Positions 17,897-22,421 of a DNA stretch of 33,374 nucleotides are shown here, in pieces. Location: NCBI GenBank assembly GCA_902612235.1, contig CACMCJ010000010.1:1-33374 (forward strand), given 5' to 3'. The notes below the pieces were generated by a model. The model searched no databases. It was not told where the DNA came from and saw only the letters and a program-made list of their open reading frames with translations. A program made the position numbers and the translations under genes. Position 1 is the stretch's first letter; the number at the start of each line of letters is the position of its first letter. Source of the DNA: an uncultured Pelagibacteraceae bacterium. Its GTDB lineage: Bacteria; Pseudomonadota; Alphaproteobacteria; Pelagibacterales; Pelagibacteraceae.

Positions 17897-18683
17897 CATT
17901 AATTGATTTCTCTCTTTAACTGTTCGAGCTTTATTTTTTTTTGTAAACTTCTGTTACTGTCGTATAAAAGATTAAATTTTATTTTCTTTTTAATTTTAAT
18001 TCTTATAGTTTTTGCATTTCTTATTTCTACATTATCAGCCACTGCACTTATTGGTCTTTTTTTTGAGTTTAAATTTTTGATTATAATTTTAGATTTGTCA
18101 CTAACTATTCTGCCTTTCCAACGTCTTGGTCTAAAGGGACTGATAGGAGCTACAGAAATCTTTTTAGAGTTTAAACTTAAAATTGGCCCATGAACTGACA
18201 TATTGTAAGCAGTGCTTCCTGCTGGCGTTGAAACAAGGACTCCGTCAGCAATTAATTTTTTAATTAAATATTTTGAACCAATCTTTAAAGAAATTGATGC
18301 AGCCTGCCTACTTTGCCTGAGAATTGAGACCTCGTTGACCGCTAAACATTTTGTTTTCTTTTTATTATTTTGAACTTCCATTTCTAGTGGTGATATTTTT
18401 ATCATTTTAGCTTTTGATAAATTTTTTATTATTTGTTTTTTTACAAACTTATTCATCAAAAAACCGTAACTGCCAGAATTAATTCCATAAAAAAGATTTG
18501 AGGACTTTTTATTATTTTTCAGTGTTTTTAACATGAAACCATCTCCCCCAATTACTATTATTAAATTAGTTCTTTTAATTGGATTCTGCTTAATTTTTTT
18601 TAATAAATAATTTCTGATTCTCGACGATTTATTATTTTTATCTGAAATTATAATAGGTTTAATCATTTTTTAGTGGTGCCCTC
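17888..18683. repeat. 11-bp inverted repeat formed by two tRNA 3' ends flanking nadK
   Basis: GAGGGCACCAC at 17888-17898 (end of tRNA-Thr plus 2 nt) is the exact reverse complement of GTGGTGCCCTC at 18673-18683 (end of tRNA-Leu plus 1 nt). The two arms bracket nadK completely. Most of the match comes from related acceptor stems and the shared CCA, so it has a simple explanation. It still makes a perfect inverted repeat around one gene. Confidence 0.8.
17899..18666 (-). CDS. nadK: NAD kinase
   Basis: A 255-residue protein with the defining NAD kinase motifs: GGDG at residues 40-43 in IVIGGDGFMLKTL, the NE pair at 111-112 (AVNEVSILRQS), and the glycine-rich TPAGSTAY at 147-154 followed by HGPILS. 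It phosphorylates NAD to NADP in the cytosol and so sets the NADPH pool. The short N-terminus and overall size fit the compact alphaproteobacterial form. The ATG is 7 nt downstream of the tRNA-Leu CCA end. The nearest Shine-Dalgarno-like bases (GAGGG) belong to the tRNA acceptor stem, 12 nt before the ATG. Excision of the tRNA would therefore leave an almost leaderless message. The start is supported by the absence of upstream in-frame coding space. Confidence 0.95.
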   Translation of the reverse strand: MIKPIIISDKNNKSSRIRNYLLKKIKQNPIKRTNLIIVIGGDGFMLKTLKNNKKSSNLFYGINSGSYGFLMNKFVKKQIIKNLSKAKMIKISPLEMEVQNNKKKTKCLAVNEVSILRQSRQAASISLKIGSKYLIKKLIADGVLVSTPAGSTAYNMSVHGPILSLNSKKISVAPISPFRPRRWKGRIVSDKSKIIIKNLNSKKRPISAVADNVEIRNAKTIRIKIKKKIKFNLLYDSNRSLQKKIKLEQLKREIN

Positions 18684-18759
18684 GGCCAGACTCGAACTGG
18701 CACTCCCAAAAGGGCAAGGATTTTAAGTCCTTTGTGTCTACCAATTTCACCACGAGGGC
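18674..18759 (-). tRNA. tRNA-Leu (anticodon TAA)
   Basis: An 86-nt class II tRNA on the minus strand. Acceptor GCCCTCG/CGAGGGC, discriminator A and encoded CCA. The anticodon stem AAGGA/TCCTT holds loop CTTAAAA, giving anticodon TAA for UUA and UUG. The long variable arm (TGCCCTTTTGGGAG) is typical of tRNA-Leu. It is followed 7 nt later by the nadK start codon on the same strand, so the two are almost certainly cotranscribed. Confidence 0.98.
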
Positions 18760-18785
18760 ACGTCATTATTTTTATTGTTAATGTT

Positions 18786-18791
18786 ATTATA
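18786..18791 (-). promoter_or_regulatory. Candidate -10 box for tRNA-Leu/nadK
   Basis: A perfect TATAAT on the minus strand lies 26 nt upstream of the tRNA-Leu 5' end, well placed to start transcription about 20 nt before the tRNA. No recognisable -35 element is found 15-18 nt further up. The rest of the 103-nt spacer (18760-18862) is A/T only in character, and I see no clear plus-strand promoter for the membrane-protein gene in it. Confidence 0.35.
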
Positions 18792-18862
18792 TTAATACTT
18801 TAAGTTAGGTATATATATGAAAAAATCATGATTTATAACTTTAAATTCTATATAAACCTAAA

Positions 18863-20716
18863 ATGATTAAATTGCGTAATTTCAATAAATTTCTCAAAGT
18901 TCCAAATAATTTAAACAAAATCACTATTCTTATATTAATATTATTTTCGTCTACGATATTATCTTTATTTTTATGGGAGCACATCAATATTCCGGTTGAT
19001 AAAAGTTCAGAGTATGGAGGTGATTACTATGATAAATCCTATAATAAAAATAATGATACTCTAAGATTTATAGTCTTTATAACTTTAAGTATATTGCCTT
19101 TCTTAGTTTCATATATCTTTTTATTTAAAGAGAATAACACAAAAATAAATCAATTTTTATTTTTAAATGATGCCAATAAATCAAGTAAGGATAAAGTTTC
19201 AAATTTTATAATTTTTTCAATTTTTATTTTTTGCATATTAGAATTTTTTATAATTGACTTAACTTTTTTTATTTCTGATTTAGATTTATTCCATGAAGGA
19301 CTTTGGCTTACGCCTTCTTTTAACTTTAGCTTAACTCAAAAATTCTGGGCTGAAAATTATATTGGTAGAGGTTTATTTGGTAACTTTTATCCAGTTTTAA
19401 TATGGAATTTGATTAATGAGATGACCATAGGATCAGTAAGATTTTTTAACATTTTTTTATTACTTTTAAATAAATTACTTCTTATTTTTTTAGCAAAACA
19501 AATATCTGAAAATATAAATTTTTCACTAATCAAGAAGACTATTTTTTTTATTTCATTAAGTTTGTTGCTAGTTTCTTTAGTAGATTACTATAATAAAGAA
19601 GAATTTGTTAAGCGTTCTCCTTTAATTATACTTTTTTTGAACTTTCTTTTATTTTCACTTAAGGACTATAATAAATATAGCATTAATTTTTTCTGTTTGG
19701 GTATTTTTTCAATTATTTCATTTTTATGGTTTATTGATGTTGCTGCTTACTTAAATTTTGTTTTGATATTTATTATTGTTTTTTATTTAATCAAAATGCA
19801 ATTTAAAATATCCCTTTCAATACTCTCTGGTATTACTTTTGGTTGGGTTTTGTTTTTAGTTACTTTTCCAGATAATGAAATAAGTGCTTTTTTTTCTAAC
19901 ACTTTAAACATTTATAAAAGTATTGATCAAATTCACGGAATTGTTTTTCCTGAACCTTTCTCGGGCAATACTAGGGCTCTAAGAACTTTACTTTTGTTTG
20001 TTATTGGAGGAGTTTTCTCAATATTTATATGCCTTGATCAAAATAAGTTTAACAAAAGAAATAAATATTTTTTTCTTTTTTTATTTATATTAGCTTTAGT
20101 TTCTTTCAAAACTGGACTAAGCAGATCTGATAACGGTCATATACGAACAGCAACTGGGCCATTGATGATAATACTATATACATTTGTGGTTTATTGGATA
20201 ATAGATTTTGTTAATTTTGATAAATATAAATACTTTTCAAGTAAATCTATAATTTTTAAATTAATTTTTTTTGCACTAATTTTTATTAACTTTAAGACTT
20301 ATAATATTAATAAATTATTGAACTTTAATGATAATTTAAATTCGTTGATATATGCAGAAGATAAAATTTATTTTAGAAATGAAAAAAGTCAGTACCTAGG
20401 TTTAATAAATCATTATAAAAAAATTTCAAAAAAAGATAATTGTATACAAATAATAACAGAAGAAACTGCACTTCCTTATTTGCTTAAAAAAAGGAACTGC
20501 ACAAATTATTTTTCTCCATGGTATGTATCACCCAAAAATATTCAAAAAGACTTTATAAAACAGCTTATGAAATCACAACCACCTATAATTTTATTTAGTT
20601 CAAGAGAAATAAGATTTATGCCAAAATTTAAACAAGTAGTATTATATATTGAGGAGAATTATGAACTACACAGCAAATATGAAAGTTGGACTTTCTTGAA
20701 AATAAAAAAAAAATGA
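18863..20716 (+). CDS. Large polytopic membrane protein, possible GT-C type glycosyltransferase
   Basis: I do not recognise a specific family. The 617-residue protein has roughly 11-14 hydrophobic segments (for example near residues 20-38, 68-88, 114-137, 193-210, 275-335, 377-395, 405-420, 437-452 and 464-482). A hydrophilic C-terminal domain of about 130 residues ends in a segment of the type PPIILFSSRE...YIEENYELH...WTFLK. An acidic motif DLDLFHEG (139-146) follows the third membrane segment. Multi-span topology, an acidic loop motif and a C-terminal soluble domain are the layout of GT-C enzymes that use polyprenyl-phosphate sugars, so that role is suggested but unproven. Two cysteines in the C-terminal domain (near 532 and 552) could form a disulfide if it is periplasmic. 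The next gene is a glycosyltransferase overlapping by 4 nt. Strong Phe/Ile/Lys/Asn content reflects the AT bias. Confidence 0.75.
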   Translation: MIKLRNFNKFLKVPNNLNKITILILILFSSTILSLFLWEHINIPVDKSSEYGGDYYDKSYNKNNDTLRFIVFITLSILPFLVSYIFLFKENNTKINQFLFLNDANKSSKDKVSNFIIFSIFIFCILEFFIIDLTFFISDLDLFHEGLWLTPSFNFSLTQKFWAENYIGRGLFGNFYPVLIWNLINEMTIGSVRFFNIFLLLLNKLLLIFLAKQISENINFSLIKKTIFFISLSLLLVSLVDYYNKEEFVKRSPLIILFLNFLLFSLKDYNKYSINFFCLGIFSIISFLWFIDVAAYLNFVLIFIIVFYLIKMQFKISLSILSGITFGWVLFLVTFPDNEISAFFSNTLNIYKSIDQIHGIVFPEPFSGNTRALRTLLLFVIGGVFSIFICLDQNKFNKRNKYFFLFLFILALVSFKTGLSRSDNGHIRTATGPLMIILYTFVVYWIIDFVNFDKYKYFSSKSIIFKLIFFALIFINFKTYNINKLLNFNDNLNSLIYAEDKIYFRNEKSQYLGLINHYKKISKKDNCIQIITEETALPYLLKKRNCTNYFSPWYVSPKNIQKDFIKQLMKSQPPIILFSSREIRFMPKFKQVVLYIEENYELHSKYESWTFLKIKKK

Positions 20717-21666
20717 AGAAAATTTTAATATATAATTCTGGAGGTGGCCTAGGAGATTCTATCCAGTTGTTCCCGCTTTTAATTAGTCTTAAAAATCATT
20801 TTAAAAAAGCAAAATTTTATTATTTAGGGTCTCACGCTAATCACTTTAACGGTAAATTAAAAGAGTATAAGATAAATTTAGAAACTGTAGATTTAGGTCT
20901 AAAATATTTTGGCTTTAGATGGTGGCATCTTATTCTAGCAAAAAAAAGATTTGTAAATAAATCGTATAGCAAATTTGATCTCATAATAGATTTACAAACT
21001 AAATTTAGAAATTCGTTTATTTTAAAAAGAATTCCTCATGGTTTATTCTATTCAAGAACATTCAATGGTTTATTTTCTTCAAAAAAAATAAATTCAAAGT
21101 CATCCGATCATTTAGAAAATTTAAGTTTGTTTATAGAAGAAGATGTTATTAAACTAGAATTTAAAATAGATAGAATAGCCAAAGAAATTTTGTCTGAAGC
21201 AAAAAAATTGCTTCCGAATTCTAATTACGTTGGTTTTTCTATTACTCAAGGAAATCAATACAGAAAAAAAAGCTGGTCAATTTACAAATTTACTGCCCTA
21301 GCAAATAAAGTAACATCTAAAAATAAAACTCCTGTTTTTTTTATAGAAAAAAACCAATTTGACTTAATTCAAAAAATAAAAAATCAAGTTCCCTCAGCAT
21401 TGTTCCCTGAGTTAAAGTCCAAATACGCATGTCCGGCTCTTGTTACAGCCTTATCTTCGAGACTTGAAACAGCTATCTCTATTGATAATGGTATTATGCA
21501 CATGATGGCTTTATCAAATGTTCCAATGGTAGTTTTATTTGGTCCTACAAATTCTGATAAGTTTGCCCCAAAGAATCCTTATACAAAAATTTTAGATAGC
21601 AAAAAGATGCATAAAACTAAAGATATAAATTCAATTGAAGTTGATGAAGTTCTTAGCCTTATTTAA
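20713..21666 (+). CDS. Glycosyltransferase family 9 (heptosyltransferase-like)
   Basis: A 317-residue protein with the ADP-heptosyltransferase fold signatures. Its N-terminal nucleotide-binding opening is MKKILIYNSGGGLGDSIQ (GGGLGD at residues 10-15). The C-terminal donor-binding stretch at 256-285 (SIDNGIMHMMALSNVP, then VVLFGPTNSDKF) corresponds to the family's D-x-G-x-M-H and FGPT motifs. GT9 enzymes act at the cytoplasmic face of the inner membrane on LPS core or similar glycans; the sugar used here cannot be told. The start was chosen at the ATG overlapping the upstream stop (ATGA) because it gives a family-like N-terminus; a TTG at 20686 would only add nine lysine-rich residues. A run of ten A's precedes it. 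The stop shares TTAA with the convergent neighbour's stop. Confidence 0.88.
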   Translation: MKKILIYNSGGGLGDSIQLFPLLISLKNHFKKAKFYYLGSHANHFNGKLKEYKINLETVDLGLKYFGFRWWHLILAKKRFVNKSYSKFDLIIDLQTKFRNSFILKRIPHGLFYSRTFNGLFSSKKINSKSSDHLENLSLFIEEDVIKLEFKIDRIAKEILSEAKKLLPNSNYVGFSITQGNQYRKKSWSIYKFTALANKVTSKNKTPVFFIEKNQFDLIQKIKNQVPSALFPELKSKYACPALVTALSSRLETAISIDNGIMHMMALSNVPMVVLFGPTNSDKFAPKNPYTKILDSKKMHKTKDINSIEVDEVLSLI

Positions 21667-22421
21667 ATTTTTAAAATCTTAATTTTTTTAGACTTAACGA
21701 GATTTAATAACTCTTTATTAACCTGACCTAACTTTAATTTATATGTTGACCTTGTTACTACAGAAACACCAATTTTTCCCAGTCTAAAAAAAGGATAACT
21801 TCCTATTTCTACAAATTTGTTATATTTCTTTTGAATGTTTCCTAATTCTTTAGAAATATTGCTCTCTACTGTAAAGAGATTAATAGTTTTGCTGTGAACT
21901 TTTAAGCCTTTCACTAAATATCTTTTACAATTTTCAATCATTGAGTTAAGAATTGAAGGGACACCAGGTAAAGAAAAAACATTCTTGGTCATAAATCCTG
22001 GCGCAGCACTAGAGGGATTATAAATTAATTTAGAACTTATAGGCATCTTTGCCATTTTTTTTCTGCCATCATTAAACTTTTTTTTTCCATAATAACTTTC
22101 TAGTATTTTATAAGCTTCTTTGTGAAATCCATACTTTAATTTAAAAGCTTTAGCTAAAGATTGAGCCGTTATGTCGTCGTGTGTAGGGCCAATACCTCCT
22201 GTTGTAAAAACATAATTAAATTTTTTTGATAAAAGTTTAATGTTATTAATAATTTCTTTTTCAACGTCAGGTATAATTCTGACTTCAGATACTGAAATAC
22301 CACAGTTAGAATTTAGCCATTTACTGATAAATGATACATTTTTATCTTGAGTTCTACCGGATAAAATTTCATTACCAATTATTAAAATTGCAGCATTTAC
22401 TTTTTTGGTTTTTTTCTTCAT
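21663..22421 (-). CDS. CinA N-terminal-type (MoaB/Mog fold) molybdopterin-binding-domain protein
   Basis: A 252-residue protein. Residues 8-20 (VNAAILIIGNEIL) and TGGIGPTHDD at 74-83 are the signature of the MoCF/CinA-N domain, followed by APGF and LPGVPSILNSMI. In full-length CinA a C-terminal PncC domain (nicotinamide-mononucleotide deamidase) follows; here the protein ends after the first domain plus a short lysine-rich tail. This matches a stand-alone COG1058-type form found in many alphaproteobacteria. The CinA N-domain has been linked to ADP-ribose or NMN-adduct pyrophosphatase activity in some species, but the role of the stand-alone form is not established. It is divergent from sfsA across a 16-nt gap and convergent with the GT9 gene, overlapping by 4 nt. 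Confidence 0.85.
   Translation of the reverse strand: MKKKTKKVNAAILIIGNEILSGRTQDKNVSFISKWLNSNCGISVSEVRIIPDVEKEIINNIKLLSKKFNYVFTTGGIGPTHDDITAQSLAKAFKLKYGFHKEAYKILESYYGKKKFNDGRKKMAKMPISSKLIYNPSSAAPGFMTKNVFSLPGVPSILNSMIENCKRYLVKGLKVHSKTINLFTVESNISKELGNIQKKYNKFVEIGSYPFFRLGKIGVSVVTRSTYKLKLGQVNKELLNLVKSKKIKILKI

Follow-up and report, generated by a model that had tools for sequence, protein, structure and literature searches.

A probable GT-C-type membrane glycosyltransferase in a cassette-filled stretch beside a tRNA-Leu gene of SAR11 bacteria

The uncultured Pelagibacteraceae contig CACMCJ010000010.1, which we analysed along its entire 33,374 bases and refer to as the window, carries a gene for a 617-residue polytopic membrane protein between tRNA-Leu(taa) and a gene of glycosyltransferase family 9 (GT9). 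We consider it fairly probable that this protein is a GT-C-type enzyme, that its gene is an occasional occupant of a cassette-filled stretch between the tRNA and the GT9 gene, and that the ATGA overlap joining the two genes is a by-product of rearrangement. SAR11 bacteria are among the most abundant in the sea and have streamlined genomes, which makes their gene gain and surface variation an open question. The cassette spot is the most interesting part of the locus; it was uncovered in relatives by a check for tRNA repeats that an earlier model reading of these letters (hereafter the sequence-only reading) had itself proposed. The source genome is incomplete (0.97 Mb, 84% complete), and comparisons drew on 61 relatives (37 of them incomplete genomes of the same genus), 121 genus genomes and 397 genomes of the order. 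G numbers denote genomes, G000 being the window's own, and L numbers denote fetched stretches or loci. The features at the locus are as follows.

17899-18666, minus strand: NAD kinase (nadK) homologue, left anchor of the variable spot, named by eye; homologues in 47 of 61 relatives.
18674-18759, minus strand: tRNA-Leu(taa), target gene of the integration spot, from a tRNA call.
18721-18759, minus strand: 39-nt 5′ half of tRNA-Leu, putative attachment core, from repeat copies in the genus and a pelagiphage match.
18760-18798, no strand assigned: remnant of a type 1 cassette left arm replacing the native tRNA leader, 36/39 identical.
18863-20716, plus strand: 617-residue polytopic membrane protein of an undescribed SAR11 family, probable GT-C glycosyltransferase, open reading frame (ORF) with ATG start.
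20713-21666, plus strand: GT9 family glycosyltransferase, 317 residues from the ATG at 20713, resident gene, ORF matching PF01075.
21663-22421, minus strand: cinA/MoaB-like gene, right anchor, named by eye; homologues in 47 of 61 relatives.

The ORFs at 18863-20716 and 20713-21666 share the ATGA overlap, and the 5′ end of the tRNA is directed at the 617-residue gene across a gap of 103 bp; a scan of positions 18650-18900 for sigma-70 promoters and terminators found none. This layout of a multi-span protein coupled by ATGA to a GT9 protein beside tRNA-Leu is the one that the sequence-only reading had described, and ORF, Pfam and tRNA calls agree with it. The DLDLFHEG motif that it pointed out is real (residues 139-146), and the C-terminal soluble domain that it proposed gains support from residues 485-617, which when modelled separately gave a predicted local distance difference test (pLDDT) score of 73.6 and a predicted template-modelling (pTM) score of 0.68.

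Profile comparison and the fold of this C-terminal domain point moderately to a GT-C enzyme. We aligned the window's protein with those of 31 other loci, filtered for RSD or RTD and with the G222 member left out. The resulting 32-member profile was then compared with three PMT_2 (GT-C) profiles, giving E-values of 4.2e-5 (P 69.6 over 403 columns), 1.7e-3 and 7.6e-3, all of them for single comparisons, against 0.21, 0.025 and 0.021 for column-reversed PMT_2 templates. Profiles of two ABC permeases, MFS, BacA, a TrkH-like protein, a pyrroloquinoline quinone (PQQ) protein and two untyped membrane proteins all gave E ≥ 0.15, the six non-GT-C controls among them being typed by Pfam on one member each. 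Invariant across the 32 members are W38, D141, H144, R251, D292, F366, R371, R421, D423, H426, C527, K543 and C546; D141 and H144 (32/32) follow the third hydrophobic segment, in a loop that would be extracytoplasmic. For residues 485-617, 8 of 50 rows in VIA are GT-C enzymes at Z values of 4.6-6.3, namely ALG12, DPY19 (three rows), the C-terminal domain of AglB, ArnT (two rows) and AftD, and the rows include ArnT 459-570 and DPY19 535-684.

The protein is polytopic like the GT-C enzymes that use polyprenyl-phosphate sugars (PMT_2, PF13231; ArnT; Gtr-type serotype conversion); it probably also shares with them an acid/His loop motif and profile similarity, and its C-terminal domain may correspond to the C-terminal alpha/beta domains of ArnT, DPY19 and AglB. 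Unlike the GT-C families, it has no Pfam match and carries motifs of its own (D141xxH144, R421SDxxH426 and C527/C546). Its neighbourhoods are rich in sugar genes: a GT2 gene flanks 17 of the 31 other loci of the family, on the same strand in 9, and a Pfam scan of 83 of the 103 neighbouring ORFs at 30 of the 31 loci (the 20 others being the L105 set, gltB pieces, and edge and short ORFs) gave 17 Glycos_transf_2, 7 DegT, 5 Epimerase and 4 Glyco_transf_17 proteins. Such GT2 neighbours recall gtrB-gtr operons, although the window itself, unlike those operons, has no GT2 neighbour; elsewhere in its genome there are two matches to the family-type GT2, 0.4 and 2.3 kb from PMT_2 matches (contigs C15 and C1). 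The 617-residue protein is most likely a GT-C-type integral membrane glycosyltransferase using polyprenyl-phosphate sugars, and its family an undescribed group of probable glycosyltransferases. Its donor would be a sugar linked to polyprenyl phosphate, which it would add to a surface glycan at the periplasmic face of the membrane; the conserved D141/H144 loop and R421-S-D-x-x-H426 would lie near the active site.

This assignment must be read cautiously, however, because several observations weigh against it. No Pfam GT-C match was found in the family members scanned, two of the three PMT_2 profiles exceed their reversed controls only weakly, and the untyped 332-residue membrane protein L151 scores like those weaker profiles (E 4.9e-3, reversed 0.12). 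The GT-C rows in VIA share their Z values with unrelated Rossmann-like alpha/beta proteins, and a Foldseek search with the C-terminal domain gave no match at E ≤ 1e-3. The invariance of R421-S-D-x-x-H426 arises partly by selection, RSD or RTD having been the filter for membership, and the G222 member has no R-x-D-x-x-H motif; these two points weaken that one detail of the interpretation. A full-length AlphaFold model, built from a shallow alignment of five sequences, reached a pLDDT of only 47.7 and was too poor for a fold search; the probable GT-C likeness of the membrane glycan enzyme of the sequence-only reading comes from the PMT_2 profile and the C-terminal domain.

One may postulate instead that this polytopic protein acts on glycans in another way, for instance as a polymerase, ligase or flippase. 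The poor full-length model leaves room for this, as does the silence of every family library searched: the protein has no Pfam or NCBIfam match at E ≤ 1 and no PHROG family match, and a seven-member profile of its family matched nothing among PDB sequences. One relative in addition has a weak Wzy_C match below threshold (16.5 against a cut-off of 31.7 bits). The PMT_2 match over 403 columns, with reversed and non-GT-C controls clean in a comparison that left Wzy_C and Wzx profiles outside, and the likeness of the C-terminal domain to GT-C periplasmic domains make this alternative unlikely.

The second gene belongs to the locus itself. Its product scores 54 bits (E 1.9e-14) with PF01075 (Glyco_transf_9), for which the cut-off is 22, and is thereby a GT9 member, whereas it falls far short of the NCBIfam equivalog cut-offs for heptosyltransferases I and II (TIGR02193, 34.7 vs 185.3 bits; TIGR02195, 33.0 vs 134.6 bits); the term heptosyltransferase-like thus holds at the level of the family and fails at that of the named enzymes. 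In the search of 61 relatives, GT9 was found strongly (E < 1e-50) in 21 of the 37 genus genomes, and in all 21 it lies at most 11 bp from the cinA-like gene. The 617-residue family, by comparison, is present in 8 of the 61 relatives, all 8 within the genus, and in 45 of the 397 genomes of the order sampled. Most members in relatives are located outside the GT9 spot, at which the family is seen in three genomes only (the window's, G009 and G222). GT9 is hence the resident gene and the 617-residue gene the variable part.

A 33-member tree places these three in separate parts: the window protein groups with proteins of a site beside gltB (support 87/69, not strong), the G009 member with G014 (100/99), and the G222 member with G162 and G072 (96/86), on a long branch whose placement is unsure. 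The three are not sisters and share only 26-29% pairwise identity, which fits independent arrivals.

These results bear directly on the idea, raised by the sequence-only reading, of a dedicated two-gene module: the membrane enzyme and GT9 would build a single surface glycan and move between genomes as a pair. The ATGA overlap, the probable glycosyltransferase nature of both proteins, and the occurrence of a family member adjoining GT9 in G009 and near it in G222 would speak for such a pairing. Yet the arrangement varies, the G009 homologue lying on the opposite strand and the G222 member, on the same strand as GT9, being separated from it by a GT2-like gene. Among the 21 genus genomes with GT9, moreover, the family occupies the spot in two (the window's and G009); 17 have a complete tRNA-Leu-GT9 stretch with no family match, and in the remaining two the stretch is broken by a contig edge (G018) or the search of relatives found no member (G005). 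An unrelated PQQ-dependent dehydrogenase abuts GT9 equally tightly in G032. GT9 is beside the cinA-like gene in every genus genome where it was found and the 617-residue family rarely there, and the reading of the two genes as one unit is not supported; the module is quite improbable and, as an inherited unit, already largely refuted. The ATGA overlap is better explained as a side effect of local rearrangement than as the mark of a long-standing functional partnership. The dehydrogenase of G032 (PF01011, L138 1150-3252) has a by-eye homologue on the other strand in G489.

The variability of the DNA beside the tRNA, which the sequence-only reading had suspected, is plain in the genus. Occupancy was counted over the 28 genus genomes in which a single stretch covers both tRNA-Leu and GT9; 13 other stretches were left out because the tRNA or GT9 was absent from the stretch or the genus was another, and 20 picked mostly for extra copies of the tRNA 5′ half were kept out of the count. 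The interval is empty in 11/28 (63-132 bp) and filled in 17/28 (1.3-14.4 kb). Cargo differs by genome and comprises, by eye, pilin-like genes, a sugar transporter (its permeases named by Pfam) with a phosphorylase-like gene, and glycan clusters. Restriction and defence proteins are also among the cargo: G365 has a type IIG enzyme, G229 has type II methyltransferases together with one of type IV restriction, G490 has a type III methyltransferase, and G035 encodes a protein with matches to candidate defence families. Their positions are as follows.

L163 9638-14891; L232 3061-7884; L137 1101-5696; L234 3927-6134: restriction, methyltransferase or candidate defence cargo at the spot.

The 617-residue gene would accordingly be one occasional occupant of this hypervariable stretch between tRNA-Leu(taa) and the resident GT9. 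A second variable slot lies on the 3′ side of the tRNA, where extra genes stand between nadK and tRNA-Leu (L144, L147, L149, L160, L165, L167 and L170).

Across the genus, DNA cassettes have repeatedly entered the spot by insertion into the 5′ half of tRNA-Leu. Many relatives have additional copies, exact or nearly so, of the first 39 nt of the tRNA within the interval or at its far edge; with up to 2 mismatches, this 39-mer occurs in 86 of 121 genus genomes and in 28 of them at least twice (maximum four), so that the proposed check for a partial tRNA-Leu repeat at the other edge succeeds in relatives. Copies on one contig are on the same strand, and a reversed-pattern control gave 0 in 121 genomes. 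The native GT9 leader of empty sites resumes after the outermost copy in G006, G023, G029, G079, G365, G403, G406, G496, G502 and G547 (not clearly in G020, G229 and G546), which indicates that the insertion replaced the tRNA 5′ half together with its leader. Each insertion would thus bring a new 5′ half and leader, with the previous 39-nt half displaced to the far edge. Units of 1.0-1.4 kb lie between the tRNA-Leu copies of G513, of which one is full and three are partial.

The arms of these units are conserved. Left leaders are mostly native, type 1 or type 2, with others fitting none of the three types (for example in G016, G448 and G467 and at copies of G020, G229 and G546). The right arm contains AGTC-N6-AGTC-N6-AGTC in 19 of 31 partial copies, 18 of these at offset 23 from the core, against 0 of 6,200 shuffled flanks; the 12 misses of this strict pattern are mostly close variants, G401 having no repeat and the outer copy of G079 and that of G033 being poor. 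Among 26 units, 18 have an 11-bp-spaced repeat pair in each arm, and in 14 of these the pair is common to both arms, compared with 115 of 442 when the arms of different units are paired; because several units closely copy one another, these counts are not independent.

Arrays of 2-4 tRNA-Leu copies separating units of about 1-5 kb are seen in L231 (G513), L232-L233 (G365) and L234 (G490), where several genes begin with a near-identical signal-peptide-like MKKLLxIVVLGLLW and then diverge. G513 also has a second copy of the tRNA-Leu 3′ part on the nadK side of the full gene (L231 1214-1269; positions 31-86, 98%), and the sole 39-mer found in G401 lies outside the spot, next to a gltX-like gene, as a partial copy with a type 1 leader (L241 2285-2328).

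No tyrosine recombinase was found in the spot in the genomes searched. A PF00589 search of 26 genomes, namely the window's and 25 with extra 39-mers, gave 23 matches in 22 genomes, mostly one frame of 309-325 residues per genome, and none of the 23 lies between tRNA-Leu and GT9 (all 14 control genomes were positive; serine integrases were not searched for). G489 has a second, weak match outside the spot. This result supports the cassette interpretation.

The same 39-mer is found in viruses. It stands, identical, just 3′ of the integrase gene in the pelagiphage HTVC105P (100%) and the uncultured phage MedDCM-OCT-S35-C6, its positions 3-39 recur at 94.6% in HTVC109P, and 23 stretches of viral contigs contain it. 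In the IMG/VR contig L174 two copies, separated by 7.7 kb, lie close to the contig ends, and the contig encodes an integrase and a primase. L174, L189 and L195 carry the triple repeat at the same offset of 23 as the cassettes; four contigs, L174 included, have an integrase at least 70% identical to that of L174, and L193 among them misses the strict triple pattern. The HTVC105P-type integrase was considered as mover of the cassettes and dropped, its phage attachment site (attP) having no triple arm repeat, and MedDCM-OCT-S35-C6 also has none. We found no match to the L174 and HTVC105P integrases in the 41 stretches searched, nor to that of L174 in the 121 genus genomes in a search without positive control, and movement in trans is for that reason something that we infer.

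We tentatively propose, at somewhat less than an even chance for the claim as a whole, that integrase-less cassettes stack in the 5′ half of tRNA-Leu(taa) and are moved in trans by the integrase of small virus-packaged satellites, which would share their attachment core and arm repeats. The conserved arms of the cassettes would consist of the 11-bp-spaced pair, often in both arms, and the 10-bp-spaced triple repeat, placed at a constant distance from the 39-nt core. The locus would then be a virus-loaded cassette array that holds restriction systems and, by rearrangement, surface-glycan enzymes like the 617-residue protein. If the cassette interpretation is true, one tRNA gene serves as a landing site common to pelagiphages, small satellites and integrase-less cargo. 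The viral-metagenome contig L174 (1-7799) is itself a probable small satellite of SAR11 phages. In L177 (1-3867) a type 2 leader is followed by the 39-mer and, by eye, by a gene resembling those of phage RNA polymerases, which looks like a prophage junction in a host with a cassette leader.

Within the window, positions 18760-18798 directly abut the tRNA and are identical to the type 1 arm in 36 of 39 positions, with 0 expected by shuffles. Compared over 75 bp, the window reaches a score of 41.5 with type 1 (mean 13.9 and maximum 26.5 in 500 shuffles) and of 19.5 with the native leader (shuffle mean 17.6); the 60 bp after 18798 show no obvious continuation of the type 1 arm. An insertion that has decayed or been deleted in part would explain this most simply: the window would have kept one cassette arm at the tRNA and lost both the repeat expected at the far edge and the native leader of GT9. 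That leader is absent before GT9 because the 617-residue frame occupies its place, and with leader and repeat gone the 617-residue gene runs into GT9. Two observations weigh against a cassette origin here, however. The repeat check that succeeds in relatives fails in the window's own incomplete genome, which has a single 39-mer even at up to 3 mismatches, which leaves a single 39-bp arm to connect the window with the cassettes; in addition, most cassette genes point towards the tRNA (by eye), while the 617-residue gene points away. With one arm scar and no second tRNA copy, the route by which this gene arrived is unproven, and it may have been cassette cargo or may have come otherwise.

An alternative history, which partly overlaps the one preferred here, invokes homologous recombination between the conserved flanks and makes the 617-residue gene unrelated to tRNA cassettes. 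It would account for the missing partial tRNA copy in the window's genome, for the placement of the family members of G009 and G222 on the GT9 side of the spot, beyond other cargo, and for members elsewhere beside gltB or among sugar genes. The arm remnant that directly abuts the tRNA and the absence of the native leader on both sides of the 617-residue gene speak against it, and we regard this history as doubtful rather than unlikely.

Small marine phage satellites, virion-encapsidated integrative elements among them, form one class with which the cassettes of the spot can be compared. L174, with its integrase and primase, shares its core and triple arm repeat with the cassettes; unlike satellites, the cassettes yielded no L174-type integrase. 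More generally, the 26 genomes searched showed no tyrosine integrase inside the spot, such as an autonomous integrative element (a tycheposon, satellite or prophage) would have. Attachment sites of HTVC019P-type pelagiphages share the 39-nt tRNA-Leu 5′ half beside an integrase gene (HTVC105P, MedDCM-OCT-S35-C6), and a pelagiphage with a 46-bp tRNA-Leu match has been reported (PMC3861242). The spot differs in that its stretches contain nothing similar to the HTVC105P integrase and that arm repeats, absent from those two phages, are present in most cassettes. Tycheposons and other tRNA-bound islands of marine bacteria are cargo islands at a tRNA like the SAR11 spot, and tRNA fragments recur beside one such described island (PMC10872708); unlike in tycheposons, the SAR11 insertion replaces the tRNA 5′ half, and the units are often 1-8 kb, stacked, and in a spot with no tyrosine recombinase. 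A literature search found no description of integrase-less tRNA-Leu cassettes in SAR11. Variable glycan genes also make up the hypervariable SAR11 O-chain cluster between 23S and 5S rRNA (PMC11898729), which is a different locus; the tRNA-Leu spot, unlike that cluster, also takes restriction, transport and pilin-like cargo.

Away from the spot, the 617-residue family has a second recurrent site downstream of gltB and before an epimerase-like gene (L150-L153), as seen in G006, G018 and G401 (epimerase by Pfam for G018). The protein of G401 (L105), which is classed in the window's genus, is identical to the member in the SAG-MED28 record (L150); the window's genus thus includes SAG-MED28, which has been assigned to SAR11 subclade IIa.B (PMC7542561). 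A tRNA is present in 5 of 34 scanned homologue loci (Leu-tag, Leu-gag and Ser-gga, the last three times). A preference of the family for tRNA neighbours was considered and dropped, since 3 of 30 shorter PMT_2 control loci also hold a tRNA. Four longer re-fetched family stretches (L253-L256) contain no extra tRNA fragment, and no homologue was found in the viral contigs or the phage collection scanned. At some loci (L005 1333-1417; L118, L124, L126) a member is placed divergently next to a tRNA 5′ end, either that of tRNA-Leu(tag), which neighbours the trigger factor gene, or that of tRNA-Ser(gga); tRNA-Leu(tag) is reported as an integration site of HTVC011P and HTVC025P (PMC6811365). Two family copies, G363:C14 and G223:C17, have many internal stops and are decayed genes, so that the family undergoes loss as well as gain.

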